DNA of 64,000 nt, taken from Dioscorea cayenensis subsp. rotundata (Eukaryota > Streptophyta > Magnoliopsida > Dioscoreales > Dioscoreaceae). Location of the stretch: contig NC_052488.1 in NCBI RefSeq assembly GCF_009730915.1, positions 20,268,305 to 20,332,304 on the forward strand, given 5' to 3'. A program made the position numbers and the translations under genes. The notes under the pieces were generated by a model that saw nothing but the letters and a program-made list of their open reading frames with translations, had not been told where the DNA came from and did no database searches. Shown here piece by piece: positions 16,857 through 59,023 of the stretch. The stretch's first letter is position 1, and each line of letters starts with the position of its first letter.

Positions 16857-17858
16857 ATGGCTACGGCTCCGACAACGTATTCGCCGTCTCAGGGTTTAGA
16901 GAGACGACAACAACAACAACGGAGAAGGATCTTCAAGGAAGAGGACTGGGTTCGATCCGATGGTCGTGGTTTTAACCAATGCCGTCCTGCATGTTGGTCT
17001 TCTCTTTCTCTTACATTTTCCTTTCATTTGTTTTCAGTTTGTGAAGTTATGCTTGTGAACTGTTTGATGATGTTCTTGTTTGGAGCTTGTTTTGTTGTCC
17101 CTCTTGCTTTTTTGGGTGGAAAGATTTGATTTTGTGTTTTATTTAGCTGAATCACTTCATTAAATTTATGTCTGCAAACTGTTTGATGAATTGCTTGTTT
17201 TGTGTTCTTTTTGTTGTTCGTCTTGCTTTTTTTTTAATGAAAGATTTGATTTTGTGCTTGACTCACTTTAAATGCTTTACTAATTTCATATCTGCTAACT
17301 TTTTAATGAATTGCTTCTTTGGAGTTTTTTTCCTGTTCCTCTTATTTTTTTTAGATAGAAAGATTTGATTTTGTGTTTAATTCAGTTGAATCATTTCATT
17401 TGCGCGAGCTGTTTGGTGAATTGCTTGTTTGGAATTCTTTTCTTGGTTTTCTTGCTTTTTCAATGAAATAAAATTGATTTTGTGTTTGATTCTGTTGAAT
17501 CACTTCATTAAACTTATGTCTACTAACTGTTTGATGAATTATTGTTTTGAGCCATTCATTGTTCTTCCTGCTTTTTCTCGATGAAAAGTTCGTATTTTAT
17601 GTTTGATTCACTTCATTAAATCTATGCCCACTAACTGTTTGATGATTTGCTTGGTTGTATCCTTTTTCATGTTCCCCCTTTTCTTTTTGGGAGGAAAAGA
17701 TTTGATTTTGTTTTCAATGAATTGTGGTTATTATGTTTTCTCTTGTTGATGCTTGTCTTGCAGTTCTTAGGACAGGCGCAGGAAATGCGGCATCAGGATC
17801 TGCTTATGCAGAGTTTGGAACAACAAAGGTTATTGTTTCTGTGTGAGTACCTTAAATG

Positions 17859-17895
<37 letters not shown>

Positions 17896-21091: not shown

Positions 21092-21169
21092 TTGTCCGCT
21101 TTGGAGCGCCGGGTTTCGAAGCCGTGGAAACCACGGGATCTCCGCCATTGCCGACCTCGCGCGATCTCC

Positions 21170-27100: not shown

Positions 27101-30100
27101 GTTATAGATGTGCTTATTGATAAATTTTGAATATTTATAAAATGATAGCAACCTCATATTGCAATTCGTACCGTGAATTAATTTTTAAATCTCTTTGTTA
27201 GGCTGATTAGGAGGCAAGTAGACTTTTTTAGTATTAGTCTACTAATCTGGACTAAGAGATAGAATGAAATTCTTGTATTTGTACTGTGTCACACTCGCGC
27301 CTGCAGACATGATGGACATGGTACCCAGCCAAAAATGTTGTTCACTTGTATATTGGTTAGAATAACTTAAAAATGATACTCACTTGCAATCTACAAAACT
27401 GGTAACTGGAGTTGCTTCCAGACGAACCAGTGCTTTGTTTTTTTCACTTGGTCCTCCACTCATATTTCTCTAACTGTGGAAACTAGGGCACTTCTCTTTC
27501 CCCATTGCTCACTTCTCACCCTTTGAGCTTGCACATTTTGTTTAACTTGTAAAGCTGACTCCACCATTCTTGCATAATTATCTCAATCTGATGCAGTGAC
27601 TATTATCTTCATTTCATCTCAAAGTCCATCTTCAAACCACCTACATTTTTCCTAAGGGCCTGTTACCATCGTGGGAGCATATTATGATTACCTATTGAAC
27701 CTATCGTGATTACTTATTGGACTTGCCTTCATATTGAGCCACAGTCAATTATCCCTAGATCAAGCGAGTAAATTTCATCTGTTTGGCATCTTTGTAGACT
27801 CATGGGAGGTATTGCTGATCAAATTCTCCCCTAAACTTTGTGCGCTAGATCGTCTCAGGATCAGGACATCAACAAAGCACTGTTTCCAATCACAATAGTG
27901 CACTGTTCTCCAATAACAATGTAGCATGGCCCCCTTATTCTCCTTTGGGCAATTCATCAACATAAGCACCATTTCCACTTGTTTGATCCATGCTTCAGCT
28001 ACTATTTGATCCAATATATCCTCAAAATTTTGGCCCCCATTTTCTTTTGTTAATGTAAGGCAACACAGGTTCTGGTTCGCTCTTTCTTTGTTTCTCCACT
28101 TGAAGTGGCAGAGTCTCCAGAGTCTGCATTAACTGTCTGGCTGCATTCTTTAATGCTTGAATTTAATTATGTAAAGATATTTTTTTTTATGCCTCTCCCA
28201 TCTCATCTTTGGAATTCTCACTCTGTAGTCTCCTCACACATCCCTCTTCTCACTAATAGGAGTGTATTTTCAATTTCCCTCATTACCTCGGGTTGGGTAA
28301 CCAATGCCCATGCCCCTTTTTTTTAATGAGGTATTTTGTTGAATACCCTAATTCTATTGCCAAATTTTAGGAGAGAATTGTATTAACAATGCTTCCCACA
28401 AATTTACTGAAAATGCAAAGTAGAGGGGATTTACTCAACTGATTTTAGGGGTCATTAACAGTGGCTAATATTAAGTTAAGTTCAATGAGTTATCATGGTA
28501 TGCTCCCATGATAATAGCAGACCTTTAGGAGAAATACAGGCTGTCTGAAGATGGATTCAAAGTTGAACTGCATCAAGTTGGGATAACTATACTTGACTGT
28601 TGATGTCAGCTTTATGAGTCAAACAAAATGTGCAAGCTTAAATGGTTAGAAGTGAACAACAGGGAAAGAGAAATAGCTTAATTTCATAAGTGCAGGACGG
28701 AGTAAAAAAAGTAGCAATGGTTCATTTAGAAGCAAATTCAGTTACCTGTTTTGTAGATTACCAGAGTATTATTTTTAGGTTTGTCTGACCAATATATAGG
28801 TGAGACAACATCTTTGGTTGGTCCCACATCTGTCATAGCTGCAATGGCGAGTGTGACATGCTTACTACCTATGAGTTTTATTTCTACTTTTGCCAATAGT
28901 TAGCTACTACCCTTTATAATTACATCACACCACTTATCTTTAAGAGTTACAAGGTTCTTTAGGTTCGTTTGATTGTCTAATAACTGGTTATTCTGATGGG
29001 ACGACCTACTTTTTCAGTTATCAAGTGCATAGTAAGTGGTAAGACTTAACAGTGAAAGGAACACTATAGTATTTCCTATTTGCTAAATGTATGTGTAGTT
29101 TGCTTGAGAAAATTTTAAGATATTGTGGCCTTGAAGCTATGCATTGTTTTACATTTAATTCACTTTGTTTTCCAGAGTCATTATGCTTTGTATTATTATT
29201 CTTGTTCTCTAAAATCATTCAGGTATCACCTCAAAGAAATGTTTGACCATACTTTGTCTCAGGTGAAAGTCATTGGCTTCTCAAAAACAGGGGAGCGAGC
29301 TCCTCCATTCATGCGCCAGGCTGTTAGGGACTATCAAGCGTATGCATCTTTTGCATTTGTTTTATGGAGAGAAGAGGAATCTTCCCTATGGTGGAACACG
29401 TACGTGCTTCTCTTATCCTTAAGATGTTGCTATTCTGCTTAGGTTTGGTTTTGTTATGAGAAATGTCTAAATAAAATCATTAGGCTTCAATTATCTACAT
29501 GGAATACACAGGAGCATCATTTTTGTTTAATTTTCTCTTCTATTTACCACATCATTCAACTACATATATACTTCTATAGAATTTGGTTATCATTTTTATA
29601 GTTAATATGAACCTTAAGGATAAACAAGCATGCTTTGTGCCTTTTTGTCTAGATACAAAAATATCATCTTTCTTTGAAACTGTTTTAATCAGACAGATGA
29701 TTTTCCAGTCAAACTTGGTAAGTTCATTTATGCATCAACTAGTATGCTTCTTTTTCCTGATAACTTATTTCTCTACCGAACATGAATGAAACCTCTATTG
29801 TGTCAGACTCTATGAGTTGACTATATGTATATCAGAAATGTATTTCTATTGTTTTTATTAAATTTTCAGTTGCAAGTGACTTAATTGATATTTCATTTTC
29901 TATTAACAGGTTTGGTGTGGATACTGCTCCTGCTCTTGTATTTCTGAAGGACCCTGGCCTGGAACCAACTATTTATCAAGGCATTCTCCTCTATAGTAGC
30001 TCTTTCGAAGTTATTTGTTTTGTAGTGTACTCCATGTTTGTTGAGAAAATTATGCGTTATCTTCATCTACTGCAGGAAACTTAAACAGTTCTTATTTCGA

Positions 30101-33100
30101 AAAATTGATGGAAGAAAATAAATATTTTGGTAAGTACCCTTGCCAGTTTTCTTCTTCTTTTTTCTTTTTTATTTAGTTTCCTTATTTTCTTCATAGAAGA
30201 ATCTGTTGAATTCAGCCAATTTTGGCTTTCCTGGAAACTGAAGTTTTTACTTTTTATATTTTAGGTATATTGCTTAATGACTTTAGGTAGAGATACTGTA
30301 TGCCATGAAAGCAGTTTTATCTTTCTTAAAGTAAAACACTAATTTGATGGTTCGTAGTAAAATGCCAATTGCATATGTGGAGAACTTCTAGATTGAGATT
30401 CTAATGTGATTTCGTTTGTCTCCAGTGCTCCCCCAACTAAGGAGCTTAACTTCTATGGAGTTAGGTTGTGATGCAAGGGGTTATTCCAGAGGGGGAAATA
30501 ATTTGGTTAGCTGGTACTGTGTAATTCTTGTTGGACGGCCAAGTTTGGAACTAAATAAAATGCGTGAAGTAAGTGTTTTGAGTGATTCCATAATAACTGC
30601 ATCTGATTGATTTGATTGATTACAATCCTGGTAATCATTCTCGAGTTTATCAAATAGGCTATGCTTATAGTCATTTATATCTTTGCCATGTTTACCTGAA
30701 ATTACCATAGACTATTCGCAGGGCCCTAAATCTATTGGCTCATGATTTTGATCCAGAGCGTGCGGAAAAAATTTCTGTCCCAGCACCAGCTATTGATGCA
30801 TTAAAGGAGAAAAGGTTGACATTTGTATGGCTTGATGGAGAGCTTCAAAAGGCAAGTTGCTTCGCTTTTGATATCATTACATATGATTTACCATCTTCTG
30901 TCACTATTAAAGTGACTTGTTTTTATAGCATACTGGCTATAACTTGAGGATGGCTCATATAATGCCTATAGGAGTATCCAAATCCAAATTGTAGTGACGA
31001 AATCTGGCTAATCAAGTTTGCATGGAATGACCACTGCTATTATGTAGTCATTCTTTTTCCTTGCTCTGCACTAATTCCAAGGTTTTGTGCAGGATTACTG
31101 TTTATTTTACCTTCATTCTGATACTATTTATGAAACTTGTGGACCAAGGAGGGATCTAGCCAATGTGCCTCGCTTATTTATTGTCCGGTACAAAAGAACC
31201 TCAAAAGTGGATGACCTGAATAGTGTGAAAAACCCAAAAAAGAAAAATATCTGGAAAACATTTCATGAGGAGGATGAGAATAAAGCATCCCAGCTTGTGG
31301 CGAAGTACAATGGCACAGAGGATCTTCAAGAGGTACAAATTTATGTTATGTGCAATACTTGTTCAGCTTCTTGTTCAAGAATCTCCTGAGAAGACCTTTG
31401 GGTCCAAAAGAAATGATTTGACCTTATTTCCAGGATAGGCTATTACACCGTAGAAACTATGCCCTTATTTCCTTTATTCCAATTATTCACAAAACAATTT
31501 TCAAGAATATAAAAGATTCCATTCTCTGGTTCTTCTCTATAATTACTTTCTGTACCCCCACGTTCACACACTTTATTCCTCATTCTCCTTGTTACCTATT
31601 ATGGGCACAACTTTCTGTATAAAGAATGCCTATGTAATTGTGATAATGCGGTCTCTTGCGAATGAAATTGAATACAATTGAAGTCTAACCCCTTAGCAAG
31701 TTTCAAGAATAGAAAGAAGCTCTCTTCCTGTGATCTAATTCTTCTTCATCCTTTGCTGCACCTTCATATTCACCATTCTTCTTGTCGCAAAATATGACAT
31801 ACAACTTTCTCTTCTAAGGTTGTCTTGGCAGTAATACAAATACAATCCATCCTGGAAATGATAATTGAATGAAATCCAACATAATCCTTAATAATTTTTA
31901 CGGGTTTGTCCAATGGCATTTTGATCTTTTAATTGGTTTTGTTTTCCTTTTGTGCAGATCATTTCATGGATCTCACAAATAATTGAGGATGGCGATACCA
32001 GAAATCTTCCTGATTTTGTAAGTTGTTGTGTCACTTTACATAGTGAATATTTTGAAAGCATAATTTCTGATTCTCATGTCAGTGCAGCATGCTGAAGATG
32101 CATTTGCTTGTATAAATGACCCGCTCATATAATTTGTTTATTGTTTATGATCCTAAAGCTACTTATGGTTTTAATTTTACTAATGCCATACATGCTTGAA
32201 TTTTTAAATTAGTGTAGGTGATTTACTGATTGGATTATTTAAAATAGCTGTCAGCCATATTAGAAATCCATGCCTTAAGTCAAATGAGCAAATATTGCAA
32301 AAAAATAGATGGCTTTCATGTACTAAAAAAACATTAGTAACATTTCTTGAAATATCTGTTATATGTATTCAAGGAGCTAATGCTGCTACTATTAGAAAAA
32401 TCATTGTCCCTTTTTTGTTGCCAGAGTTCTATGTTATAATAATATAGGTGTTATCTGTGAGGTTACTACTTGAACATCTGCTTGTTTTTTGGTTTACATT
32501 TTCTCTTGAAATCGATATTTGTTTCATTTGTTATCTTTTGATAAAATGGCCAGCCATACTTCCATAAACTATCCCATGTGAGGACTATATGCTTTACTGT
32601 TTTAGCACTAAATCTATTTTTGATTGAATTAAGTGCAGTACTTAGGGATTCACTCAGCTTCTCTCCCAAATTTCAATCCCACTATTCAAAAGGGTTTTTT
32701 TAATATTGCTCAATTTCCATTTCTAAATTGTGTATGAAGTATATTGGCTTGTATTCAAGCATACGAAACTGTAAGCTTGACGTTAAAGTTATAATGTAAG
32801 TATCACTGACATGTTTTATCTGCAGACGGTGTCAACACCTGAACTCCTTCCTGAGGAAGGAGATCGAACCTGGTCAAAGGGTACCCAAAACATTGTCTCC
32901 TCTAGCAAGGGAATTGTTCAAAAGTTTCAAAATGCTATAATGAATATTCCTGATTACATGACGGATCCTAGAGTTGGCCCATTTATGCTGCTGTGTGCAT
33001 GCTTATCATTTGGAGCCATTTGGTTTCAAAGCAGCTCAAGTCCTCAAAAAATAAGTCCTTCTGAAGAGGTGAGATATGGTTTGAATGTTAATTTTAATCT

Positions 33101-33566
33101 TCTGGATGTTGTATATCCCACCCTTTTATCCATCCGATTACTAAAATTTTGAGTCTCTGAGGAAAATCAATGCCAGCACAGTAGGTATTAGAACTCATTG
33201 TTGATGATGAATGGTTTCAACCACATAAAATGTTAAAAGATTATTGATTTTTATGCTATATAAAAGTATCACGAGCTAAGTCAGTATTTCTTAGGGTTTA
33301 ACTTCCATAGATTTACATCCTTGTCCATGTACATAAAAGAAAATTTTCACCTTTTTTAAGCACCCTCAAAGTACCTCTTCTTTGTGTTTTTTTATTTCAT
33401 CGACATTCTTAATGGTTTTGATCTCCAGGCTGTAGGAAAAGAGAAGCCAAGAAATCACAGAAGACGAAGAGAAGCAACCTCAAACCAAGAGCGGCCCCCC
33501 TCGATCACTGATACAGAACCTCGAGATGCATATCAGTGGTCAGCATCAGATACTAACTCGGAGTAG
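21170..33566 (+). CDS. J-like / thioredoxin-like membrane protein (DNAJC16-like, At1g65280-like)
   Basis: Twenty exons give 685 residues: 21170-21287, 21380-21449, 21811-21850, 22177-22254, 22792-22876, 22971-23053, 23267-23324, 23696-23803, 25025-25082, 25315-25411, 26539-26574, 29263-29399, 29910-29980, 30076-30129, 30426-30568, 30711-30851, 31093-31332, 31958-32017, 32826-33068, 33429-33566. The sum is exactly in frame. An N-terminal hydrophobic anchor (about 10-32) is followed by a J-like domain (YEVLGVRHLATIEEVTEAY ... YAFELLTNPTWKRDYDLYG), one or two thioredoxin-like regions (VLIQVFSSGSHRCAKFL; KVKVIGFSKTGERAPPF), and a second membrane segment near 592-612 (GPFMLLCACLSFGAIWF). The C-terminal tail is basic and polar. 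The HPD tripeptide of true J domains is absent (KISLKWASGANP), so Hsp70 stimulation is doubtful. Introns 13 and 16 have GC donors. A Met at 21092 would add 26 residues. Likely site: ER or endomembrane (inferred). Confidence 0.88.
22394..22440. repeat. 23-bp tandem duplication in intron 4
   Basis: TAGATATCCAGCTTCAACCA and the next few bases occur twice back to back, immediately before a tRNA-like sequence. Confidence 0.85.
22441..22505 (+). mobile_element. tRNA-like (SINE-type) fragment in intron 4
   Basis: AATAGCCGAGCAGTTAAGG resembles a polymerase III A box of a Leu/Ser-type tRNA, and GAGGGTTAGACCTC some 35 bp later resembles a B box. It probably derives from a tRNA-related SINE rather than being a working tRNA gene, since the acceptor arms do not pair. 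Confidence 0.4.
22490..22815 (+). repeat. Tandem duplication including a decoy copy of the exon 5 start
   Basis: A block of about 95 bp (ACCTCTTTTCTAATGCATGG ... TGCTTGATGCTTTTACATTC) occurs at 22490-22584 and 22690-22784. Each copy is followed by a 3' splice-like CAG and GATGTT(G/A)TTGAAAAAA. The second (22792) is the real start of exon 5. The first (about 22668) lacks the rest of the exon and runs into stops. Confidence 0.8.
23804..25024. other. Intron 8 of the DNAJC16-like gene
   Basis: A 1.2-kb non-coding intron. The stretches at about 23815-23930 and 23990-24110 are diverged copies of each other (both have GGCTCTTGCTYACT and CCTAGGATG-type landmarks), indicating an old tandem duplication. 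Confidence 0.5.
26575..29262. other. Intron 11 of the DNAJC16-like gene (2.7 kb)
   Basis: The largest intron in the gene. It holds a minus-strand gag fragment (see 27775-28060). A short inverted pair, TCACACTCGC near 27290 and GCGAGTGTGA near 28853, may mark the limits of an old insertion. The remainder is unrecognised. Confidence 0.45.
27775..28060 (-). mobile_element. Ty3/gypsy-type gag fragment
   Basis: Minus-strand reading DQIVAEAWIKQVEMVLMLMN, then CPKENKGAMLHCYWRT, resembles the start of the plant Ty3/gypsy gag core (DPLVAEGWI..IEKIFxxMxCP..KVxLA). Only about 60 residues are recognisable and no other retroelement domain is seen nearby. This is a small relic. Confidence 0.5.
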
Positions 33567-34300
33567 TTTGATTCTGATATGGAATTGCAGAGCCTTAATT
33601 AGTCACCACTGACGCTATCAGTAGTTTCTGATATCTATTTAACTATTTTGGGTGTTTGATAATTTATTTTACAATTTTCTTTTAAGTTGTATGATTGTTG
33701 TTTCGTACCATCATACAACTCAAGATTTGTGGATTCAGGTTACTTTAGATTATTTGTGTTATGAGTGCCAAACCCACTTGACTACTTGAGATCACATGTG
33801 AAGTGCTTCTCTTTTTCTGTTTATGAATACTTTGCACCTTTTTTCAGTGTAATTGTTATAGAGGGCAAGACAATCGAGTGGTGAGAGTTCGATTCTCGGT
33901 TGATGGTATATTTTTGGGAGTTGTGAATAGTGGTTGTGTACGAGGTGGTTAGGCGTCACGTGAGCGTGCTCCCGTTTCACTTGTTTCACCGAGGCATGCA
34001 CGCCTGGGGATCTCTAGTGGGTTCGCCCCGCTCTTTTTCCTCAAAAAAAAAAAAGACAATGGTGGTAATTCCATCAATCGTTTATATGAGGGGATTTTTT
34101 TTTTTTGTGTGGGAAAATATGGATTAATTTATTTTAACCAAAGTAAACAAAAGAAGTTTTTTAATGTTTTTGTGATTTTTGTACCAAGCTCCACTTAATC
34201 CTACTGCTTTACTTTTGTTTTGCTGATAGTAATCCTGCTGCTTTACTCTTGTTTTGCAGATAATATGAAAGAAAGAAAAAAAATTTAAAGAATGATAAAA
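33567..34300. other. Intergenic region downstream of the DNAJC16-like gene
   Basis: Contains the 3' untranslated region and a SINE-like sequence (entered separately). No gene recognised. Confidence 0.4.
33850..34057 (+). mobile_element. Probable tRNA-derived SINE
   Basis: GTGAGAGTTCGATTCTCGG is a good polymerase III B box. It is followed by about 150 bp of GC-richer unique-looking sequence ending in CTCTTTTTCCTC and a 12-A tail at about 34046-34057. The region stands out from its AT-rich surroundings. The A box is weak and a target duplication was not established. Confidence 0.45.
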
Positions 34301-37459: not shown

Positions 37460-38567
37460 AACGTTATTAGTCGGAGCACATCAGCAGAACATGCTTTTAG
37501 ACTCGGATTTCATCTTATAAGCTGATTGCTGTTTTTCATTTTTATCAACACAACGGAATTTTGTCGAAGAAACCTGGAAATGCATCTTGTATCTTCTCAG
37601 CACTTTGCTGCACTCAGTATTAAGAAAATTTTATGCAATTTATTGTTGTCCGTATAACTCCATTTCTAACTTTGAAGAATCTGATTGTAGATCATTGTTG
37701 ATCTGCAGGTGGGTTTAATAGTTTTTTGTTAGCATCTATCTGAATGAACCGTCCCCTTTCATTCATTTTTTCTTTTTGATTATGATGGATGCTAAGACTA
37801 CTGTTTCTGTTGAAATATGTATGTGTATATACATACATAAATAGGTCCAAATGAGATTTTCTACGTGTCATGGGCGTGCATAGCAGTGAAGTTATATTTT
37901 TTCAGTAGAATATGAATATTTTACAAAAAAAAAATTATTCTAACATATCAAGAGATCATTGACAAGGAGGTTGATGAATTAATTCACTTTTACAATAATT
38001 ATCTATGCTCTTACCTTGTGTAAGTTGAGGTTTGAATACGTTGAGAGCGGAAAGAATCAATTTTTTCTTTTAACAATTAAAATGAATGGTTTGTCTATTT
38101 GATTATATATATATATATATATAATCAACAAATAAATAGACAAAGTGAGAAGATAGAAACAATTATGATTTTTTTCCCCCTCTTTTACCCAAGGAAAGGA
38201 TAATAATTATCCAATTTTTTTTTTCAAAGGGCATGCAAGTTAAGAGAAATAAAAACCTTCATATTTATCTCATACACATTGTCTGGTTAAGAGTCTTAAG
38301 ACAAATCAATTTAGTTGAAAAAATTTAGATTTCAGGTTGATGATTATGAATTTTTCATCACAAATATTTAAAAACTGTAATATTATATAATTAAATAAAA
38401 AATTAAAATTAAAATCAATTAATAAATACTTATTTAGTATCAAGTATCAACGACAACTACGCCCTTTGGATTTTAATTATTAAATCACGATCTCTTTTCA
38501 CTGGTTATTAAATTTTTCATCGTCTCAGAGCTGCTTTCTTTCTTGCGGTTCCTCGATTGAGAGTGAG
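37460..38567. other. Intergenic region between bL32m and the p24 gene
   Basis: 3' untranslated sequence, a TA run near 38106-38122 and AT-rich sequence. No gene recognised. Confidence 0.5.
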
Positions 38568-41339
38568 ATGGCGACGAAGCTCCCGGCGATGGTGGTGATG
38601 ATGATGGCGTTGGTGGTGCTGGCGTCGGTGATGCCCGGACGATCCCTTCGCTTCGATCTTCAGTCGGGGAGCACCAAGTGCATCTCGGAGGACATCAAGA
38701 TGGACGCCATGGCCGTCGGCAAGTACTCCGTTATCAATCCTTCTGATTCCGGTCCCCTTCCTGAAGCTTATCGAGTCACTGTTAGGGTTCGTGTTTCGTC
38801 TTCTTCTTCTTCTTCTATGCCAAATCGATCGGAGAATTGGTGATATTTGGTGTCGGAAAACTTCAAACTTCAGATCTGTTGATTCGGTGATCGTTGCTTG
38901 TTTGCAGGTGACCTCGCCGTATGGGAACAACATCCACTTCGGGGACAACGTGGATTCCGGCAACTTTGCGTTCACGTCGGTGGAGGCCGGGGATTACCTT
39001 GCTTGTTTCTGGACTCCCGACCACAAGCCTCCTGTTACCGTCACCGTTGACTTCGATTGGAGAACCGGAGTCGCCGCTAAGGATTGGCCCAGCGTCGCCA
39101 AGAAGGGTCAGATCGATGTATATTTTCTATTTCCTATCTTCTTTGTTTCGTACTTTCTTTTTTTTTCATTTGGGTTTTTTATTTTTCTTGTCTTAATTCA
39201 AAGAAAATCATAGCCAAATTCTATCAAGAAATCTTTTTTCCCCCTTCTATTTGAGAAATTCATATCAATATATCATCAGGACCGCATTTGAAACTTAGCA
39301 GTAGAAAACCCTTTTTTTTTAAAAAAAAAAAAAATCACCTTTCAGTGAAATTGCATAGATTTTTTAATAATTTGGAGAAAGCGAAAAAGCTAATGATCCA
39401 GTATATAAGGTTTATCTGATGTTTGAAGCGTGGAAAGGTTAGTTTGGAGATATTACTATCCTATTAGATTGAGTGTTGAAAGAAGGCATGGCTTGTTGTG
39501 AGACTACTTTAATGGTGAGCAAAAGAGTCTTGTGGTGGTTTCTTTACTATCATGTAAGAACTCTGGAACTGGATATTGGACTGGTATATTATGTAAGTTC
39601 TGATTTTATGTTATCGGGAATAGAATTTATGCTGGAGGATGATTAATGAATGAAACTTAACTATGAAACATATAGTTTGGGTCACATAGGTATTCATATG
39701 GCAAGAACCTTATTTGTGTAGTGTAGGGAAGTTGCTGTTTGTAGTGGTAAGTTATTCTTTTCAAGATTTAATAGAATAAATCGGTTTGAAGTAAGGTGAA
39801 TATCATGATGACCTAGAGGTTGGCTCAGTTTCATTGGTGATGCTGGAGTGAGCTATGTAAAAAATCTAAGCCCATCAGCATGAATTTAGCTAGTTCATCA
39901 CACAGGCCCACTGCCATTTTATCAAATAACACAACTAACGTTGTTTATTTAGCCCCTAGGCACCCATCCGTGCTTGAACTCCTGTCAATGCCCAATTATA
40001 AATAGATAAATCACCTACTTGGATTCTATAGAATTTTGTGGGTAATTTACTGAGCAATTGATTGCATTCAGCATGAAAATATTTTATTGTATTTTGTTTT
40101 AGTTTCCGATGGAAACAATCATGCTAAGTCCAATTTGTTGTGTCAATTCATTTTGGCTGTTTCTCATTTTTGTTTTATATCCTGTGGACGTTCAATAAAC
40201 AGGACTTGTGAGCTGTGATTTTATGTAAGTCATACATGAGCGCTTTATGCTGATGTCAGTTTACTTACGTTGATCTTTTAGTCTTGGCATTAATAGAAGA
40301 AATCAGCAATGGTGCATATGATTATTTTTTTTTCTTGCTTCTTTTTGCATTGAATAATATTTTCCAGTTGCCAATCATACTCAATCAATAATCTAATCAC
40401 AAATGCTGTCATTATTCTCAACACAGAAAGTATTGTTGCCTTAGAAGATGTTTTCCATAATTGCTAGATCACCCAATTTTTCTTCATTGTATGTGAATGG
40501 ATTTTTTTGTGTTTCTCCTGTAAAATGTTTCTCTTAAAAAGTGCTAGCCTGCTTCAAAGCATTTGTGAATTGTGCATATTTGAGTATGATTAATTATTGC
40601 TTAATTTGATTCCATATGTAGTAATTAGGACTTTGTTCTCCGTATCATTCTCTGCCTATACAATATGTATGTGAAATGTTTGCAACCCATGTGGGGGCAA
40701 GAACCAAAGAATGTTTTGCTGTGAGAAAGAACCCTTTTCTATTGCAGCAAATGGATGCCTGATTTGGGAAAGCACTTACTAATAACAGAACTTCTGTTTG
40801 GAGCACATATCATATTTATCATCATTGCCAATTTCTGCAGGTCATGGAGCTGGAGTTGAAGAAATTGTATGATACTGTCACTTCAATTCATGATGAAATG
40901 TTCTATCTTCGTGAAAGGTAAATTAATTTAATATCCGAAAAGTTAATCAAGTTCTACCACCATCTTGACAAAGATAACATGCTAGTAACCAACTCATAAA
41001 ATTCATTCTAATTTAACAATAGAAGGATACCTTTGTGTGTTTGTGCTAGAGAGATTCTCTGTGAATTCCATTCTGCTGAATTAGTTATTTCATAAGTTCA
41101 GCTTTTTCATCACTTTGAAGAGATGTTCATGAACTTCATGATGCTACATTTCAAACTGGTTTCTTTATGTCTTACTATGTAATATGTATTTCAGGGAGGA
41201 GCAAATGCAGGACATGAACAGAGCAACGAACTCAAGGATGGCATGGTTGAGCTTTCTTTCCCTTGCTGTATGTTTATCAGTTGCAGGCTTGCAGCTATGG
41301 CATTTGAAGACCTTCTTTGAGAGGAAGAAACTTCTCTAA
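38568..41339 (+). CDS. p24-delta family cargo receptor (GOLD domain)
   Basis: Four exons: 38568-38786, 38908-39117, 40841-40917, 41195-41339; 216 residues, GT-AG and in phase. A signal peptide (about 1-26, ALVVLASVMPGRSLRF) is followed by the GOLD domain (FDLQSGSTKCISEDIKMDAM ... AGDYLACFW, with the paired cysteines), a coiled-coil (MELELKKLYDTVTSIHDEMF, then REEQMQDMNRATNSR), one membrane span (about 183-204, FLSLAVCLSVAGLQLWHL) and the cytosolic tail FFERKKLL. The FF and KKxx signals bind COPII and COPI coats. p24-delta proteins cycle between ER and Golgi and help load cargo such as GPI-anchored proteins and the HDEL receptor. Intron 2 is long (1.7 kb) and non-coding. Confidence 0.94.
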
Positions 41340-42440: not shown

Positions 42441-45400
42441 TTACTGTGGGAAGATGTGCCAATGATGATCAGGTGAAACCGCCTCCTTGATTTTCTCAAG
42501 CTTCTTGAGAATATCTATAAAAGAAGGCCTCTGCGCCATGTCAGCAGACCAGCATTCAACCGTCAATCTGGACCATCCGAAAAGTAGGAGTACAATCAGA
42601 GTTAAACTGGAGAAGGATGCATGGTTACAGACTTACAGGCAAAGGATGTGATATTCAACTTATAGTGAAATTGACCGAGACACTAAGGTAGTGTGGCGAG
42701 CTCAGTGTTGATGTATATACTTGTACTTACTCTTTCAATTCCAGAAGGTACCCTTTCGCACGAAATGTTGGACGATGGCCTTCTGCAACATACTTTGCAG
42801 CTTCATAAGGTTCATAGTTTGACATAGGAGGATCTCCTTCAAGCATCTGCAGATTGTGGAACAACAGTAATTAGAGGTTGAAGAAAAAAATGTTAAACCC
42901 ATTCTAAATGGCCAATGAACTGCTGATGAGAAAAACAAGTGTACCTCATATAATATCATTGCAAAAGAGAATACATCAACTTTCTTATCATACTTCCTAT
43001 GCTTGAATACCTCAGGAGCCATATATCGGTCTTCCATCTCAGAAAACAGCCTAAAATTAATTCTCAGGGCAAAGATCTGACTTTGTTAATATGAAACAAA
43101 TTTAATACTCACAGCTCCCAGTTTCTCCAGTCATTTTGTACACATCATGAGAATTCTGGACTCTGATCAGCTTGCTTAGTCCAAAGTCTCCAACCTTTAA
43201 ATGGTCCGCATTGGAGTTCACCAAAAGAACATTCCTGAAGGCATTGAGTGAGCTTCAGAATTGTTCTTAAAAGCACTCATCGAGTGTTATCAGATGAACT
43301 AACCTTGGTTTTAGATCACGGTGAATTATGACATTTGGTTCGTTGTGAAGATATGCCATGCCCCTGTGCAATCATTAAAACTGTAAATGACAACACACTA
43401 ATCTGCCATCACCCATATGCCACAAGTTAAGACTAAATTCTTGGCATCTAACTAAAACGTAATTGCCAGAAGAAAAAAACTAGTTGGCTAATACTTATCA
43501 GGCAAAGAGCTATGAACACTTTAGGATTTCTAAACATGGTCAGTGACTTTATCCGCTTTATCCACTATATGTCAAGTATGGAAAAAAGGATAAAAGATAA
43601 GGAAAGGAAAAATGCAGCACGCGAAGAAGCATCTATCTCATAGTTACCATAGTGGCTGTTATATGACTTGCACTCTAAGAAAAAAAAACCCTACATTGCA
43701 AATTTTAAAGGTTATAAGAAACCATTGAAGTGCATTAACAATGTAACACGATACCATATGCTTTGTCAACATAGATAATCGAGAAATTGCTATTTCAGTT
43801 ATCACTTGAGGAAATTGCTTCGAATGAACATAAGCAAGGCAAATCTGGGACTCAGGATATAAAAAAGGAAGAAGCACAACACCAATTTCACATGAAAGCA
43901 AAGCAAATGCCTTTTCTGATGAGAGTAAAAATATACACTGAAACAGGATTAAAGGAGCCCGAATTCCATGCCAAATTTATATGAATGCAGAAAACAAACT
44001 CAAAATGTGAACAACAGGGTTGCTCAACAATCCACACTATCTCAAACAATGCAATTCTTTAGTTAGCATCTACACAGTGCAATGAAAGTAAATTCATAGA
44101 AATGCCAAGAATCTCCATTAAGTTAATGAATCAGTCTTACCAAATTACAGCCACGCTCTCCTAAAACCAAAGGAAATTACATAAACATGCACTACACAGT
44201 ACAAGAAAAATAAATCCATAGAATGAACAGGTCACCATTGTTCGCTCTACAATAATGTTCAGGATCCCCTATAACTAGATCAATCAGAGTTGTAAAGGGA
44301 TAATAATAATAATTACCTGGCAATATCCAATGCAAAATTAACAGCGGTTGCTGGACTGAGAGCACCCTTTTCCTTGAGATATTGATGGAGATCACCCTGA
44401 TAAGGAATGAAATGTAGCAATTTAGAGAAGTTCAGTTCTTCCATAAGAACTTTTATGTTAGCCAATATGAAACTTTGCTTGAGATATAATTCTCATTTAT
44501 ACCCCTCTTAAAAATTCTGTGACTAGCATCAAAGGTTTCCTCTCGGTAACTGCTCCAAGAAATTGGACTATATTCGGATGGCGTAGCTTCACTAGCAAAT
44601 TCACCTCGTGCCTAAAGTCTTGACTGAATTCAATAGTACAAGAACAAGAGGAGTAAGAAGGGCTGATACTATCAATTAAGAACACATCACATTAAGACCA
44701 AAAGCAGTGGTGAAAACATGCATTTTTCTGATGGACTTAAACAAAGAATGCATTCTCGCCAAGTAATTGCTTCTCTCAATAAAACCATTTGTGAGACCAA
44801 ATTGCATATCTATATATAATACAAAAGATATGCTTACGTCACCAATCTATCATCTGAGAGTGATGGAAGAATACGTTTTACAGCAACTGGTGTTCCACGC
44901 CAATAGGCTATTAATATTTCACCAAATGAACCCTACAAAAACGAAGAGAGAACATAATTAAATTCAAATAAATTAATAACTTGCAAAACACCCCAGAGAT
45001 TTAGTTGTAGATTAATGCCTCTCTCATTCCTATTTATTCTGAGGCACCCTTCAAAATCATTCCATGCATCAAGATTACAATGTTTAGACCATTCCTTTGT
45101 ACTTGACCCCTTCTACAGTTCTACTAGCTATAACAGCTCATTATTCTGCCATAGTCAACTAGAATTTGATTGTTTGTACATAGCAAATAACTGACCTTTC
45201 CAATAACGGTTGAGGTTGAGAAATCCAACTCAGATGGGTCAATTTCCCAGTCACACTTGTTGGGAAGAGGGGGTGGAACTGCCTTTTGGTTCGAAATGAC
45301 TACCATTTTGTCCCTGTGTTCCATACAAACAGATGATTATTCCCTCCCTTACCAAACAATATGAGGTCTGATAAAATTGAATGATTAGTATGGTTTAGCC

Positions 45401-47566
45401 TAAAGATCATTATTATAACAAAAAAAAAAGGAAAAAGGCCAGCATGTCTCTAACCATGAACAGGAACTAGACAATAAGGAGTGAAAGCTAAAGGTGGCTT
45501 AAGGAAATATAACAGGAAATACTATAAAAAGTAACAAAGCGATGCTGCAATTAACTGATGCTAAAGATATAATGGGCCATAGTAATGCATACTAGTTTGT
45601 TTTATAAACCGAATATAAATATCATGAAAATATATATAATGTTCATCTCATATTTCAGAGTCAGAACGGACCAAATGGTATTTCCCAAGGCTGGTGCAAC
45701 TATAGTTCACCTTTGTAAATACAAGCATACAAGAACTGCCTATGCTCTCATGGCCATGCGCATTACTTAGTTTTATAAAACATTTCCAAGATGCCACTCA
45801 TAAACACTAAAAAACTATTCGTGGTCATGGGCAACACTTAATTTTTTTAAATATTTCCAAGGTACCACTCATAAGTGAAGAGAAACTATTTGTATAGTGC
45901 TGATACGACCTTGCGCAAGGATGAGATCATTCCTATCATTAAAAACAAATAAAAAAAATTATAGGCATAATTATATACAATTTCAAGACATGTATTAGAA
46001 AACAATTCACCATGGCATATATGCACGCAGGAAAAATACTTCAGAAATTAGTAAGCCACAAGTGCCCAACATGAATACGGCCAAATTCTCTTATTGGCAG
46101 CATTCAACATCTACGAAAGCCGGCATTGCTGGTACTGAACAATCTTATCTACAAGGTGAGGAAACTTACAAAAGACAAACCACCATAAGATTTCAATAGC
46201 TCAATCATACTGTGCTTTTTGGCTCCTTCTGCATCTGCCAATGGCTGTCAAAAAAAATACCCTAGTCAATACCATGTGTAACATAAATGAAATTTACAAT
46301 CTCTTTAATCTAAACAAACCAGAAATAGAAAAAAAAAAAATCTTCTTATAAACGCTATGCAGATTTGACCAAAACAGAATATCAAACATCAAGTCAAGTG
46401 TATGGCTATCGGAACTACAAACTGATTTGGGGACTAAAAGCTTTTAACTGCAAGATGTATTCTCCTCTTGATTAAAAAGACAATGTCCTCTGAGAATCTG
46501 TAAAATTCAACCCAGACCGTACAGGCTAAGACATGAATTAGGATTGAGAGACAAACTACTTACATCTTCTTCCACCTGATTAAAAGGAGTCCTTCATAAG
46601 TTCTCCAATCTTGATCTAAACCATACACAAGGAAAAAATTTTTAATGGTGAAGCTATTCCTTTACCCTGCCATCAAGCCAAACTTGTTACATCTGTGCAT
46701 CAGCTTTCAGGTCAATTCCCTGATTGCAAATGTAATTCTATCATTAAAGGTTTAGATATTATAGATACTGGCACTAGAATATCACAGTTAAGTCTAACCA
46801 TGATGTGTTCTGATTTAGTAATTGATTCAGCTATAAAGCTAGATCATTAGCAATGACTAATGCATTTAGGAAACAAAAATCATAGCTTATGATGAAGTAG
46901 ATTTGATGAAATAGGAGCAATGGCATCCAAGATTTCATATAAAACTATTCAAGATACAGTTTCCCCCTGGCATGTTTCCATTTGAATCAAAAGAAGGGAG
47001 TCCACCTTCTCTTACATATGAGATTGAGCCATGGTTTTAGTTGCATTTAAAAAAATCATCCAACAAAACAAAGCTAGGTACTTAAAACTATGACAGTTGC
47101 ACTAACATCAGCTGCCAATTATAATGAACAATCACAATTAGGCTCATGCGACGGGATCAACCATTCGCCTATAAAATTTCTCAGATTTCAATCATCAATG
47201 TGCTCCATACTAAAAGGAAATCAAACAGAGAAGGCCAAAGAGACACACCGTATTCTTCCAGCGGTCCTGGGCGTTGACATTGGCACCGAACTCAAGAAGG
47301 CACTTGGCGACATCGATCCACCCATGAAGCGAGGCGACATGGAGAGGGGTTCGGTTATCGTAGTCATGAGCATTGACAAGGCCAGGGTCCTCCTCAAGGA
47401 GCTTCCGGACGGCGGCAGCGTCATTCTGGTGGGTATGCCAGAGAATCAGAGACGTCCGGCTAACCCTAGCTTTCTCCTTCTGCTTGCTCGCCGTCGGTGC
47501 CTGCGAGGAGGAGCCACTGCCCAATTCCTCACCGCCGGGAGCTTGATCCCCCTCCTTCCCACTCAT
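42441..47566 (-). CDS. VIK: Ankyrin-repeat Raf-like protein kinase (VIK / ILK family), with a 1-base frameshift
   Basis: Eleven exons: 47249-47566, 46170-46244, 45196-45313, 44838-44932, 44503-44623, 44317-44396, 43304-43363, 43113-43234, 42945-43030, 42731-42846, 42441-42567. All junctions are GT-AG. Ankyrin repeats (about 35-130; LLEEDPGLVNAHDYDNRTPL, LHVASLHGWIDVAKCLLEFG) precede a Raf-like kinase domain: GKGSFGEI glycine loop, VAVKRI Lys, HRDLKP, GDFGLSK, and end SPDHHWHIFPQ. The sequence tracks Arabidopsis VIK (VH1-interacting kinase, At1g14000) along its whole length as I recall it. VIK binds the receptor VH1/BRL2 in vein patterning and phosphorylates the vacuolar sugar transporter TMT1. 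The exons sum to 1318 bp, one more than a multiple of three. Exon 3 starts in frame as GQNGSHFEPK but continues as AVPPPLPNKCDWEI only in the +1 frame. One extra base sits at about 45282-45287. Without it the protein would be 438 residues. As written, translation stops at about 45251. Confidence 0.9.
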
Positions 47567-47689
47567 CTCGATTCAGCGATGGTTTGTGGGGAGCTTCTTC
47601 TCTCGATCTGGATCCCAGATGATGCTTGCTGGCGCAAAGCTTCTCCCTTCTTCTTCGAGGTATCAACTGGCAGCCATTGATGGATCTCT

Positions 47690-47693: not shown

Positions 47694-47737
<44 letters not shown>
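47690..47737 (-). repeat. GA/CT microsatellite in the VIK leader region
   Basis: A CT run on the plus strand (GA on the VIK sense strand) lies about 130-170 bp upstream of the VIK start codon. GA tracts in plant leaders and promoters can bind BPC/GAGA factors; here that is only a possibility. Confidence 0.8.
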
Positions 47738-50657: not shown

Positions 50658-52843
50658 CTGATAGTTAAAATTAGTGCAAGTGATATCTTTACAAGCGCGC
50701 CAAGAAAATTATGAACTATTAGTGGAATTGATAAGCTCCAACAATCACATCAAATGTTGAATGGGGGTGTTCAATATAGATGGATGAAGCTTCAATGCAA
50801 GCCAATAGCCACTCTTCACTGAGTATTGTCTAGATTCTGTGAGTTGCCATCCAATTTGATCAAACTATGAGAAGGCCTAAACAAACAAAATTTAATTTCA
50901 ATTCAAGAATGAAATGGACCTACTTAATTGGAGAAGAAAAAAAGAAGGCCAAAATTATTGAACGAAAGTTTGGCGAACCATGCAATAATGTCATCAAGTG
51001 AGCAGTTCACCCTTTGACTTGATGGGGAAAAACTTTTGAAAAAGGTGCCATGCAAAGTGATGATTGACAATAACTTTTAGTCAAAGCAAGTCAATTTAAC
51101 CTTGCCAATTATATAGAGGCAAAACACTCAAAAGTCCTTAATAAATTTTATTTACCCCGTTTAGTCTCTCTTCATTATTTTTTAGTGCTTGCTTTATGAA
51201 ATTATTTCCCATTAGTTCTTTTTTGAGGGTTAAGGTATTAACTTTTCATAGGGTTTTTCCATAGGGTTATGTAAGTAATTTTAAGATAACATTTGTAGGT
51301 ACAAACAACTTTGGTTGTTAATGAATTTTGTTGTTGTTGGGTTTTTGTGAAAAAATGGCCAATTTTATTAAAAAGCAAACAGAAACATTAAAGCAAACTA
51401 AAAATGGATAAAAACAAAAGAACTACAAGAAAAAACTCCAGTCATGTTGTTGTTGTAATTATTATTATTTTAGTTAATTTTTTTTAAAAAAGATGGATAA
51501 ATTTAGTTTTTAAATTAAAGAATGGATTATTTTGAGGCTAGAAATGCCTGAAAATAAATAATATTTTTACTATATGGACTGTGGCCCATCTGTCACATTG
51601 GGCAACATCTTATCCAATCTGCCATGTCACAGACCACTTGTCACAAGAATTTTTAATTTTTATTATAGAAAGATTAATTGTTCATACGTTAGCAACACAA
51701 TCAATCAATCATTAGAGGATAGATATGTTGGAATTATACTCTAAGCCCATATAGAGTCTATTGAGAACCCACTAATACTAAAATATAAAATTTAACAAGA
51801 TATACATGTGAAAAATTAAAATTTGGAAAAAAAAATCAATATTCTAGAAATATATGTTTGATATTTTATTTTATTTTATTTTATTTTTTAAAAGAAACTA
51901 CATCTCCCCATTTGTATTTTTTTTAAAATTTTTAAATGTAAAACATGAGAAAATAACCAATTTAGTTTTTATAGGAAGAAAATTTATCAGTTTACCTTCT
52001 CATGGGAGAAAAGAAACATTCAAACTTTTTTATTTTTAAATAATTTCTGATTTTTTTTATCTTCCTAAAAATCTTTGATTTTTTTATTTTAAAAAGTAAA
52101 AAAATGAATAATTTACGTTTTTTCCAAAAACAAGATGTGAAAAAAAAATCAAATTATGTTGATATCAAATCCTCTCTGCATTAGATTGTTGTTCTTATCA
52201 GGAGGCAAGTTTGAAGCTTAATTTATATAAATAAAGGCCACAAATATTCTTACATATGTCTTCCTTGCCCACATTTGTTCTCCACAACCATTGATCTCTT
52301 TGCCAAGTGTTCGATATCTCAAGCTATGGTATTTTATTAAAAATATTATTATAATAATATTAAATGAAATAAAAATTTAAAAAATATTTTTAATGAAATG
52401 TGAACATACATTGCATCATACGTGCATCCAAAATAGAGAATTCAGTGTTAATATACCAAATTTTTATTGATAATTTAAAAAATTAAAATATTTATATAAA
52501 TATTTTGAGATATTTTAAGCAAAATTTTCAATTTTATATAAATTTAACACACATATTACCTACGTTATGCTTATAGCCATAGAGTAACTTACTTACTTGA
52601 TTCTCATAAATAAATAAATAAATTTAACACATAATTTATTTATTTATTTATTAGTAAAATGACTGAAAAGCCCTTGCTAGATACCAAGGTTGCCTTGCAC
52701 TATTCCTAAAGCAAAAGCAAAAGCACTTCTTCTCCTTCCTCTCCAAGCAAATCCATGGTCCATGGATTCATTGGATTCCATTCTCTTTAAAAGAGGCCAA
52801 GCGCGGGCGAGAGCGAGAAAGAGAACGAGATCGAAGAGCGTTA

Positions 52844-55800
52844 ATGGAGATGGACGCCTCGCCATCAATGCCTTTCCAAGCTCAATTGCCGGTAGAGTTA
52901 GCCGGCGGGCCGGAGATCGCCTTCTTCGACCTGGAGACAACGATGCCGTTGCGGGGGTCGTGGAAGCGATACGCACTGCTCGAGTTCGGCGCCATCCTTG
53001 TTTGCCCTAAAAAGCTTGTGGAGGTTGGTAGCTACTCCACTTTGATCCGCCCCTCTGACCTCTCCGTCATTACCGACGCTTCCATACGCTGCAATGGTAT
53101 CTGCCCCGAATTGGTCGCCTCCGCCCCCTCGTTCCATGAGGTTGCCGACGAAGTGTTCCGGATTCTTCACGGTAAGTTTTGCATTCCTTTGTCGCTGACC
53201 TTTGATCGGCTTTGACGGTTTGTCGCTTTTCAGGGCGGGTGTGGGCTGGTCATAATATCTTGAAGTTCGACTGTGTTCGTATTCAGGAGGCTTTCGAGGA
53301 GATTGGTAGGCCTTCCCCTCAGCCTCGGGGCACAATTGATACTTTGCCATTGCTTACCCAGAAGTTTGGGAAGCGAGCTGGCAACATGAAGGTAAAATTC
53401 TCTTTTGGTGGAATTAACTGCGTGGAATTTGTTGTAAAAAGGGTTGCTTGGAAATGATCTATGGATATACACACATATACACACTGCAAATATGTATACT
53501 GCGCTGGATATTTAAAAAAAAAAGAAAATGATTGATTTACATCACATTATTTTTTCTAGATTCTTATAATAAGGTTGACTACTAGGTTTTGAGATAAAAA
53601 GAGGTTGCTTGGTAATGATCTGAAGACCCTATCATATATATAATACGTATTGTTCTAAACATTGAAAAATGCGTGATTAATGGTAGATTTTTCTTTCTAA
53701 ACGGCTGGGTCTTATGATTTTGGACATCCAGTCTAGTGAGTTCGAGTTTAACTTTGAATGAAATATTTTCCTGAATTGTACTTTCTGTGAGTTGTTATTT
53801 TTGCAGATGGATAGCCTGGCAGCTTATTTTGGCCTTGGGCGGCAAATGCACAGGTAGGCTCTCACTCATCAACTACTTTTCGGATATCAAAACTATAGTT
53901 TATCGATGGATATCTTTTATAGAATTATTGTGGTTAGCATCTTGATAGTGTTGAGGCCCCTTCGGTAAGCTAATGGACTCAGTTATTTTTTTTTTCAACA
54001 AGATATTAAGCCATCTTGGTATGATCAGCCTAGGGATCCTGTAATTCTGTATCTCAAGAGGTATGATAGACCTCTCAATATTTTCTAAAAGTAGCTCCTT
54101 TTAGAATCATTGTTCCCATTTCTAGAGCCATATAGGTAATAGGTTGTTTGATGGCAGAACTTTGTCATTATTCATTAATATTATCAACCATTATTGTAGG
54201 AAATTAATGATGGAATGAGTGATTATTTGGTCTTATTCACCCAAAAGTTTTAGCCATGCAGTTGATGTTTCTGAACACGCGAAAGATTAGAAAGGTTTTA
54301 CATTATGCAACTTTATCATCAAAATTTCTCAGTCTGTGAATTGGACTGTAAGAAGATTGAAATTTAAGATGTGCAAACTCCCACACAATCTATTTAGTGA
54401 CATAGAAATAGATTTGTTTTATCACTGTCACATCTTGCACGATCTAAGTTTATCTTTAATATTATTTAGTTTGTATGTTATATTTATACATTCGTTTGAA
54501 TTTGGTGTAATTTATATATGTGATCCAGGAGCTTGGGTGATGTTAGGATGAATCTGGAAATTCTGAAGTACTGTGCTACTGTATTGTTCCTGGTAATTCT
54601 GTGATCCATTTCTCTCAATTTCTTCTTATTTTGTCAATATATATATATATATATATTTCCAGTCCCTGAAGCTAATGCATGTGGGGAAGGTCTTCAGAGT
54701 TTGAGTATAAACCACAGTCTTGATCTCTCAATGCATGAAGTGATGGAATGTCTCTAACTGGTTTCCTTGTGACCATTTTTGAAATCCCGGCTTCTCTTGA
54801 AAATATTTTCTTTCTATATTCTGCTGATAATTTATGACAATGAGTCACTTCCCTCTTTGATTATGGGTCTATACAAAGAAATTATATTTTCAACATTGGG
54901 TTACATATAATCTCTTGCCATTTGCTGTTTGTCTTCCATGTTGAAGGCTGTGTCTGTTGTTCCAATAACTGTTAGGTCATGTATATTGCAGCATCATAGA
55001 TGGCCTAATGTATTCTTAATATTCTGAATCCTGTGGTTCCTGCAGGAATCGAATTACTCTGATATGTTTCCAGTGAACAGTTTGATTAATGAGAGCACCA
55101 TTCCAAGAAACAATGCTGGTGGGAGTGCGTCTCCTGTTGAAACCAATGCTACAGCAGATCCTAGTGCCCCAGCATCAAACATGGAGCCTTTTGATTTAAT
55201 GCATAATATTGAGCAAATGAGAATTGACCAAAATGAATCCATGGAGAATTTTAGGTCAACAACTAGTGTTGCCACTCTTGCTGCTGGTGAGGGTTGTAGT
55301 CAGTGTGTTGGATTTTCACAACCTGAGGAAGTTTCAACTCAGTGTGTTAGGGCATCGCTTGCCCCCTCTCCTTATCAACAATCTGTTCCCAGAATAGTTC
55401 TACTTCACAAAGATACCCCTTTGCAACTTTGCCAAATGGGAATGAAAATCCATTTCAGATTAAGCACTAAATTTGCTCCAAAATTGAGTTTTATGGTTTA
55501 TGTGGAATCAAGCCTACACAATATTCTGGATTTGTGCGACAATCTTGCCGAAAGCTTGCATGTGGAATCCGGCAGCAGCTCCCAGTGGAGGCATGTGATA
55601 AACACTAATTATGCAAAATCTGCCAGCGTCAGATTACAGTAAGTTCTCATATTCTGTCTCATCTTTTGTTGCTTTCCACCTCTTGATAAGATAACAAACC
55701 TTGTCCTTAAATAGGTTTGTCTGTTTATGGCTAAGCGCCACAAATTGAAGGTGAGAAAATGGTCACTCACTGTGGAAAGCAAGGTGGCATAGATTTAAAG

Positions 55801-56440
55801 CCTTCCCAGGTTCTGTTTGGTGAGAACTAGGGTTGTCCTTAGGCACTTCTTCAGATTAGAATAGATCTTGACTAGAAGCTGACTTGGTTTAATGACACTT
55901 GGTCGTTGTTGTTTGAGTTTGTTGTTCATGGTAGCAATGAGAATATGCAATTCAATCGCCACAAATCATAGGAGATTGCCATTCCTTCAAATCTCCATCC
56001 CAAATTCTAGTCATATGTTAGGGGCACCACAACCCTGAACCTCTTCTGGCATCATAAAAAAGTTTAAGTTGGAGATGAACCCTTACATTAACATGAGCAA
56101 ATATTTTTTAATTCTTCACTACATATGCATACTACTTACACTTGATATGCGGTCATTTTCTCAGTAACTCTGTTCTTAGCTGAATTCTCTTGTGATCTTT
56201 TACAGCATACCTACTGTCATAAATGACCATGTTGCAATGTACTCGACGGAGATTTACCATAAGGAACCTTCGGGGAACACTCGGAGACTTGTTTTCAGAG
56301 AACCAGATGCGGAGGAGCTTGAGCCATTAATCATTCCGGGGAACATGGTTGATGCCTACTTCAATTTGGAGACATATGATTTCCAGGAGTATGCTGGCAT
56401 TCGCCTTGTGGCGAAAACATTGGTGCTGCATGCCAATTAG
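52844..56440 (+). CDS. NEN1-like DEDDh exonuclease
   Basis: Six exons: 52844-53171, 53234-53391, 53807-53853, 54529-54592, 55046-55638, 56206-56440; 474 residues, GT-AG and in phase. The N-terminal exonuclease domain has the DEDDh set: D29 and E31 (FFDLETT), D122 (WAGHNILKFD), H177 and D182 (QMHRSLGDVRMNLE). It is followed by VLKYCATVLFLESN. The large C-terminal part is less familiar and ends with VAMYSTEIYHKEPSGNTRRL, then PLIIPGNMVDAYFNLETYDF. It resembles Arabidopsis NEN1/NEN2, NAC45/86-dependent exonucleases that act in enucleation of phloem sieve elements. Whether this copy does the same is inferred. The start Met is the first in frame and lies just after an out-of-frame TAA. Confidence 0.9.
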
Positions 56441-57497
56441 AATGAACACAAAATTATTGCTTAGTTTGTACTATGAATTCACCATTCACTTATTAGTGTC
56501 TGGTAGTGGCCTCTCTTCTTTGTCTTAATGTAACTTATCTGTATCAAACTCTCTGGTTTTCAGCAATGTGCAACTTCCGAATTTATTTATACATAACTTC
56601 AGAATTTTTAAATTTTAATTTGTGGACAATAACTTTTATAAGCAAAACTATAACTAATCAACTACAAACAAAACTCAATTAACACTTATTATACTTTTTA
56701 ATATATACTGTGTTTAACTGCAGATGTTCTACGAACGTCCACAGTTGACGTTTTCCCATTACAATTATGTAGGTATTCTACGAACGTCCTATGTTTCTTC
56801 ATTACAATTATGTATATAGATTCAATAGTGACACACATGTAGTTTTTCTTATAAAATATATATAAAATAGGTTTTTTTCTAACCAAATATTAATGTTTTA
56901 TTAAATATACATGCAAGTCAATTTTTTATGAAATGCAAATAATCATTTGATTTATTAGCACTAATTTCGTACATAGGATATTCGTGTTTTCACTGATAAG
57001 ACAAGTTTAACCTACAACTTATACAGAATGAGAGCACAACTATATTAAAATATTAACTTCTCACCTGTGATCATAGATGTCCATGATATGATTTGTCCAC
57101 TTTGTAAAAAAAATAAATCTATTAAATATACTAAAAGTAATAAATTTTGTAAAAAAAAAAAAAATCAATAGAATATATAAAAATAATAAACTTCCCCACT
57201 ATAAAGAAGAAACAATTTTCATCTCCCTTAAAAAAAAAAATTATCTCCCCACCATAGGTTGACAATGAAGTGAATCCCAGCTGTTAGCAGCATTTTAAAA
57301 AAAATAAATTAAAATTATGAAGGTTTCTTAAATATATATATATATATATATATAATAAATACAGATAAAAGAAATTTAAAAACACTCTGTTCAACCATCC
57401 ATTTATTCCCACGTGGCAGACACTCCATCCCTCTCCTGAAACTTCAACCATAGAAACTTCTCAGCGTGAGAGAGAGAGAGACAAAGAGAGAGAGGTG
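56441..57497. other. Intergenic region between the NEN1-like and DUF1997 genes
   Basis: AT-rich. It contains a short duplicated motif (TCTACGAACGTCC near 56728 and 56777), a TA run at about 57334-57353, and a GA-rich leader at 57466-57494 just before the next start codon. No gene recognised. Confidence 0.5.
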
Positions 57498-59023
57498 ATG
57501 GCCAAGATTTCAGCAGCAATTGCAACAGGATTTAGATCAAATAGATGTACTACTATTACTACTATTTCCCCTCTTGTTTTGCAAGGTAGAGTTTATCTAT
57601 TTCCATTATTTCCTCTTATTATCTTATAATTCAATCAATCTAATCATCTTCAGGTTGTGGAAGCACAACAAGAGTTCTTGGATGGAAAACAAACAGAGTT
57701 CAACACATGAGGTTCTCAAATGCTATCATATTCATCATCATCATCAGGTCCAGTGACTTTCAGCTCCACAATCTCCACAGACATCCCTCTTTATGAACCA
57801 CCAGGACAAGTATAGTATATAAATACTCATCATTTACTTGCTCTTTATTTTAGTGTTTTAATGGAGTTGTTCCATTCCATGTCCACAGGCTTCATTTGAT
57901 GATTATATCCAGGATAGACCCAGAGTTTTCAATGCAATGTTCCCAGATAAACGTAGGAGCAAGAGACTGAATGATGCAAGTATTTATTATTATCATTTAT
58001 TAAATTGAAGTTCAATAATATATATATATATATGATTTGCATGTAATTAACAAGTATAAATATTAAAATTGCAGGAGGAATGGCAGATCCAAATGCTTCC
58101 AATACAGTTTCTGTTTGCAACAGTGATGCCAGTGGTGGTAATGCGCCTCAAGTGTAGATCACTAGGCAAAAACTACCCTTCTGGTGTCCCTCTTCATGCT
58201 ACTAGAGTTTTGGATCTCCAAGCTGTAATGTTGCCTTGCTATATTTAAACTAATATATATATATATATATATAGAATTTACATCTTCTATGGACGTCCAA
58301 TTCTCAGCCATTGGATTGTGATCATAATAAACAGTATTATTGTTTATTGTATTGTTTTAAACAATAGTTATTGTGTCGTAGTAATTACTGTTTATCAATG
58401 TTATAAACAGTATTATTGTTCATTATAATAAAACAGTAATCACTGTATATGCATTGTAGTTAAATTTTTCCAGTGAGCATCTAAGTTTGGCTTTATATCG
58501 GCTGAGACTCGACTTTTCAATTTAGTATCAAAATAAGCACCAAAGCTTTTAATTTCATTTCTCCGACGTAATCGTGATTTCAGTGGATTTTTGGTGACGT
58601 GAGCCGAAAAGCATATGTGGATGCCCCTGGGTCCACGCTCATCGACTGTCACTCACCTACTTAACCAATGCTGGTGTTTTTTGTCACGTAGGGATGTACA
58701 CGTCGATTATCTGTAAATTAATGTAGTTTTTTTGTCCAGATAGGATGAGTTGGTGAGTCGGTGAAGTGGACCTAGGGCATCCACGCAAGCTTTCCGGCGT
58801 CCACATCACCAATTATCCACCGGAAATCTCCAATTACTCCATCGGAGAAATGAAATTAAAGCTTGGTGCTCATTTTGATACAAATTGAAAGTTAGTGCTC
58901 AAACTTATATAAGGCCAAACTTAGGTACTCACTGAAAAAATTTACCCAATTATTGTTCATCAAATGTTAACAATTGCATCGAGATCCAACGGCTGATAAT
59001 TGGACGTCCGTGGAGGATTGGTC

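Follow-up and report, generated by a model that had tools for sequence, protein, structure and literature searches.

A gene of 11 exons that encodes both ankyrin repeats and a kinase occupies the minus strand from 47566 to 42441 of the window, by which we mean the whole 64-kb stretch of yam DNA that was analysed. By its sequence, the gene matches plant VIK (VH1-interacting kinase), a Raf-like kinase that carries its ankyrin part at the N-terminus, and its exons are as follows:

47249-47566, minus strand: VIK exon 1, read in frame 0, encoding the N-terminus and the ankyrin repeats
46170-46244, minus strand: VIK exon 2, frame 0, PLADAEGAKKHSMIELLKSYGGLSF
45196-45313, minus strand: VIK exon 3, 118 bases, containing the frame break and the premature stop
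44838-44932, minus strand: VIK exon 4, encoding the glycine-rich loop and the region of the catalytic lysine
44503-44623, minus strand: VIK exon 5
44317-44396, minus strand: VIK exon 6
43304-43363, minus strand: VIK exon 7
43113-43234, minus strand: VIK exon 8
42945-43030, minus strand: VIK exon 9
42731-42846, minus strand: VIK exon 10
42441-42567, minus strand: VIK exon 11, up to the natural stop
42441-44623, minus strand: VIK exons 5-11 with their introns, remainder of the kinase domain

All 10 of the 10 introns have GT-AG ends. N-terminal ankyrin repeats were detected in exon 1 by a Pfam search that covered the stretch 47210-47569 (PF00023, E = 2.6e-9; PF12796, 1.2e-8), and a kinase domain was detected in the later exons (PF07714, E = 6.4e-63; PF00069, 7.7e-56), where VAVK, HRDLKPRN, DFG and APE, which we take to be the catalytic motifs so named, were read by eye. 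When the kinase part was compared with solved structures, 2760 distinct sequences were matched; in the best 60 of these, an EGFR chain came first, with a score that is the sum of two stretches of about 88 bits each, and TNNI3K, MAP3K9 and Arabidopsis-type CTR1 kinases came behind it. A CT repeat was also seen at 47702-47735, upstream of the start codon.

The comparison sequence for Arabidopsis VIK (AtVIK, At1g14000, from the Raf-like MAPKKK subgroup C1 or plant ILK group) is a provisional one and not a database record. Local identity to this provisional sequence was 106/129 (82%) for the ankyrin part and 243/287 (85%) for the kinase part, AtVIK being the one ILK that was compared. Together with the Pfam matches, these values bear out the original prediction that the gene encodes the VIK kinase. 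The order of ankyrin part, linker and kinase domain is the same in both genes, and their lengths are equal apart from one surplus base, without which the yam gene would, by arithmetic, encode 438 residues, as does provisional AtVIK. Date palm PdVIK, of 458 residues, is likewise described as an ankyrin plus kinase protein and given as 85% identical to AtVIK (PMC7288329), a figure to which the identities of yam VIK come close; the date palm protein was shown to be active in that work. In exon 10 (42731-42846, minus), GYLLELKE stands in frame opposite GCTPDLRE of provisional AtVIK, with several adjacent sites differing, which is perhaps mere variation or perhaps a pair of compensating indels.

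As the sequence stands, one continuous ankyrin-kinase reading frame is absent, with the break lying in exon 3. The coding exons total 1318 bases, which is 1 modulo 3; exons 1 and 2 have lengths divisible by three, exon 3 is entered in phase 0, and the exons after exon 3 fit only with one base fewer ahead of them. The kinase part is read only in the +1 frame, open for 307 codons from DKMVV to the natural stop across eight introns, and the frame-0 product of 151 residues ends at a TGA at 45253-45251 (minus) without the kinase. Over the joined exons, 24 stops were counted in frame 0, 32 in frame 2 and five in frame 1, the last of these five being the natural stop and the other four all preceding the kinase part. 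Frame-1 stops being so few, with none inside the kinase part, the open kinase frame is not a matter of chance. Therefore, both the single-base break between the ankyrin and kinase parts and the coding total of one over a multiple of three, as predicted from the sequence, hold true. Given the chosen splice sites, the existence of the break is independent of provisional AtVIK, because the frames of exons 1-2 and of exons 4-11 differ by one base.

The features of exon 3 that bear on the break are:

45304-45306, minus strand: ATG in the kinase frame, would yield a 305-residue kinase without the ankyrin part
45282-45287, minus strand: AAAAGG, frame switch from ...HFEPK to AVPPP..., placed by eye against provisional AtVIK
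45283-45284, minus strand: AG of a candidate alternative acceptor, AAAAG/GCA, first exon base 45282, omits 31 bases, low score
45251-45253, minus strand: premature TGA in the ankyrin frame

The sequence CCAAAAGGCAG lies at 45289-45279 on the minus strand of exon 3, so that AAAAGG corresponds to 45287-45282, as had been predicted. The placing of the break at this point was made by eye, rests on provisional AtVIK and picks no particular base as surplus; BLAST alignments to provisional AtVIK stop at residue 139 and restart at residue 150, the linker between them being unaligned. The coding sequence has 19 homopolymers of at least four bases, five of them of length 5, and besides the AAAA at the break the other 18 (13 of four, 5 of five) come without a frame break. 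Thus, with the four-base run being just one of 19, nothing about it makes a slip particularly likely, though one could have happened there: the short homopolymer first proposed as the cause stands as a possible site of slippage, and as an argument it is weak, since so many other runs cause no break. The remaining exons are open and in phase, as had been claimed, and no second frame break or stop was found in the 1318 coding bases and no irregular end at the ten introns. An old pseudogene was rejected because only this single lesion was found, and identity to provisional AtVIK is not lowered.

The break has the appearance either of a common sequencing slip or of an allele inactivated very recently, which are the two explanations paired in the original prediction, and both survive. 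We favour a sequencing or consensus error, with a probability of about 0.55, a figure that represents a judgement, as does the lower one behind our wording for a young allele. The surplus base in exon 3 would then have been introduced in sequencing or consensus building and be absent from the plant, and the product of the true gene would be a complete kinase of about 438 residues. An error is supported by the regular introns and the long kinase frame that spans eight of them, by the strong Pfam scores of both domains, by an identity to provisional AtVIK near the date palm level, by the agreement in length once the surplus base is removed and by the low age to which a real unconstrained null is confined (below). 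Against it, the run is merely A4-G2 and its 18 counterparts are undisturbed, a young real allele would give an identical appearance, and the coding sequences checked elsewhere in the window, two PPR ORFs and P450 exons read by eye, are unbroken. Other features of the window are:

121-1764 and 2094-3794, minus strand: neighbouring PPR ORFs, both unbroken and with an E motif, of 547 and 566 residues, 3339 bases together
5607-7642, minus strand: cytochrome P450 gene, PF00067 1.4e-27, one frame, profile positions 145-345 of 462
17766-19900, plus strand: fragments of a 3' exoribonuclease gene of the exosome type, RNase_PH_C 21.1 against a cut-off of 20.8
38568-39117, plus strand: beginning of a p24 (emp24/gp25L) gene, the cut-off being passed by exon 2 (45.6 bits) and missed by exon 1 (21.6)
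52667-53215, plus strand: ORF that matches an exonuclease profile, RNase_T 1.3e-8

Pfam searches covered VIK exon 1 and the kinase part, the PPR ORFs, three frames of one strand at 17000-24000 (plus) and 5001-7800 (minus), and also 3800-5100 (minus), 38400-41000 (plus) and 52600-58000 (plus); on 24000-33900 (plus) they gave no match. The two PPR ORFs, alike by eye, are apparently tandem paralogues. In the P450 gene, whose introns carry TA repeats, an intron apparently separates FQ at 5879 from the haem-binding stretch AGPRICLG, which runs from 5783, and a pattern search found no unsplit haem motif. Two RNase_PH pieces of the exoribonuclease gene (17766-19900, plus) fell under their cut-offs.

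Generally poor sequence was considered as a cause and finds no support in the two intact PPR ORFs, nor in the exons of the P450 gene and the first two of p24, the P450 and p24 exons being judged by eye and without a reference. From the PPR ORFs and the P450 exons, none of which shows a break inside an exon, errors are thus not common in the stretches examined, although this does not clear one single base.

The same unbroken coding stretches nearby, along with the literal reading of the sequence, would favour a surplus base that is real and a recent loss-of-function allele of VIK, which we regard as possible but doubtful. The premature stop starts 57 bases before the end of exon 3 and has eight exon junctions downstream, so that the transcript would be a likely target of nonsense-mediated decay, and any protein made would be the 151-residue ankyrin fragment. 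The lack of a second lesion and the unreduced identity to provisional AtVIK argue against this allele and limit its age. If 7e-9 per site per year is taken as the neutral rate, an unconstrained VIK gene would be expected to gain about 1.6 additional disabling lesions per Myr, and therefore a real unconstrained null would be less than about 1.9 Myr old at the 5% level; across a range of neutral rates, the age that leaves a 5% chance of no further lesion runs from 1.1 to 4.4 Myr.

Published work on other plants bears on whether such an allele could persist. Seedlings of the Arabidopsis T-DNA mutants vik-2 and vik-3 are described as having fewer lateral roots, and redundancy with other ILKs is raised by the authors (PMC11434109); the loss of VIK is thus survivable in Arabidopsis. 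A review describes VIK of potato and Nicotiana benthamiana as a late blight susceptibility factor, the potato protein being used as such by a Phytophthora effector (PMC7773600), so that a plant might tolerate its loss or even benefit from it. For date palm, the database is said to contain four VIK isoforms (PMC7288329), which makes other VIK copies possible. Within the 64-kb window no second VIK copy was found, as tblastn matched the exons of this gene only.

Alternatively, the base could be real and splicing could restore the frame, either through a different acceptor, with 45282 as the first base of exon 3, or by skipping of exon 3, but this we consider improbable. Both routes are in frame. 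An exon start at 45282 coincides exactly with the frame break, requires just one changed splice site and, joined to the normal donor of exon 2, gives by arithmetic a 428-residue kinase minus a ten-residue stretch of the linker; when the nine internal exons were omitted one at a time, the frame was restored by omission of exon 3 only, giving 399 residues. However, on score tables made of consensus values, which separate sites weakly (those of the gene itself score between -1.2 and 8.4), the 45282 acceptor reaches -2.6 compared to 2.9 for the normal site, under the gene's own lowest of ten (-1.2), and it is placed after the normal AG and after another AG that gives an exon start at 45299. Donors (GT or GC, in a range that opens 10 bases inside exon 2 and closes 250 bases beyond its end) and acceptors (AG, between 300 bases upstream of exon 3 and a point close to its end) were also scanned for pairs that lead from the ankyrin frame into the kinase frame with no stop on the way, and the best of the 21 pairs found had a summed score of 0.1, versus 3.4 for the canonical pair. 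With the normal donor, the workable exon starts were 45282 (-2.6), 45255 (-7.0) and 45228 (-9.8), and with the normal acceptor there were four workable donors, with scores from -2.8 to -7.4. Skipping of exon 3, for its part, would probably lose the start and first strand of the kinase fold.

A bypass at the level of translation, with ribosomes shifting +1 at AAA-G or with the kinase starting at its own ATG in exon 3, seems to us more improbable still. This ATG (45306-45304) is flanked by A at -3 and G at +4, but it arises of itself from the Q-N-G codons. The RNA of 45313-45180, a genomic stretch that ends with 16 bases of intron 3 and does not include exon 4, folds worse than its shuffles (z = +1.44; 190 of the 200 fold at least as well), and so no stimulating structure is seen in it. 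A programmed frameshift was rejected on this lack of structure in 45313-45180, which includes some intron; we know of no plant nuclear precedent for such a +1 shift. Little weight is likewise given to a base both real and fixed, with the gene working via the 45282 acceptor, or split into an ankyrin peptide and an ATG-started kinase, or being a natural VIK null, perhaps thereby lacking a late-blight-type susceptibility factor.

A sequencing or consensus error is thus the reading that we retain. Compared to AtVIK, the frame break of exon 3 is a feature of the yam sequence. Among the titles listed in literature searches none concerned a frameshifted VIK, which does not prove absence. Relatives were also sought in contigs of prokaryote genomes and of viruses, where none of the 65 and none of the three pattern matches, respectively, was upheld by tblastn.

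Should the base be an error, this genome may have a wrong gene model, or none, for a conserved kinase. Should it be real, the plant would be a natural mutant, and the kinase affected would be one with a link to lateral roots in Arabidopsis, as reported for the mutants (PMC11434109), which the review describes for potato and Nicotiana benthamiana as a susceptibility factor for late blight (PMC7773600).
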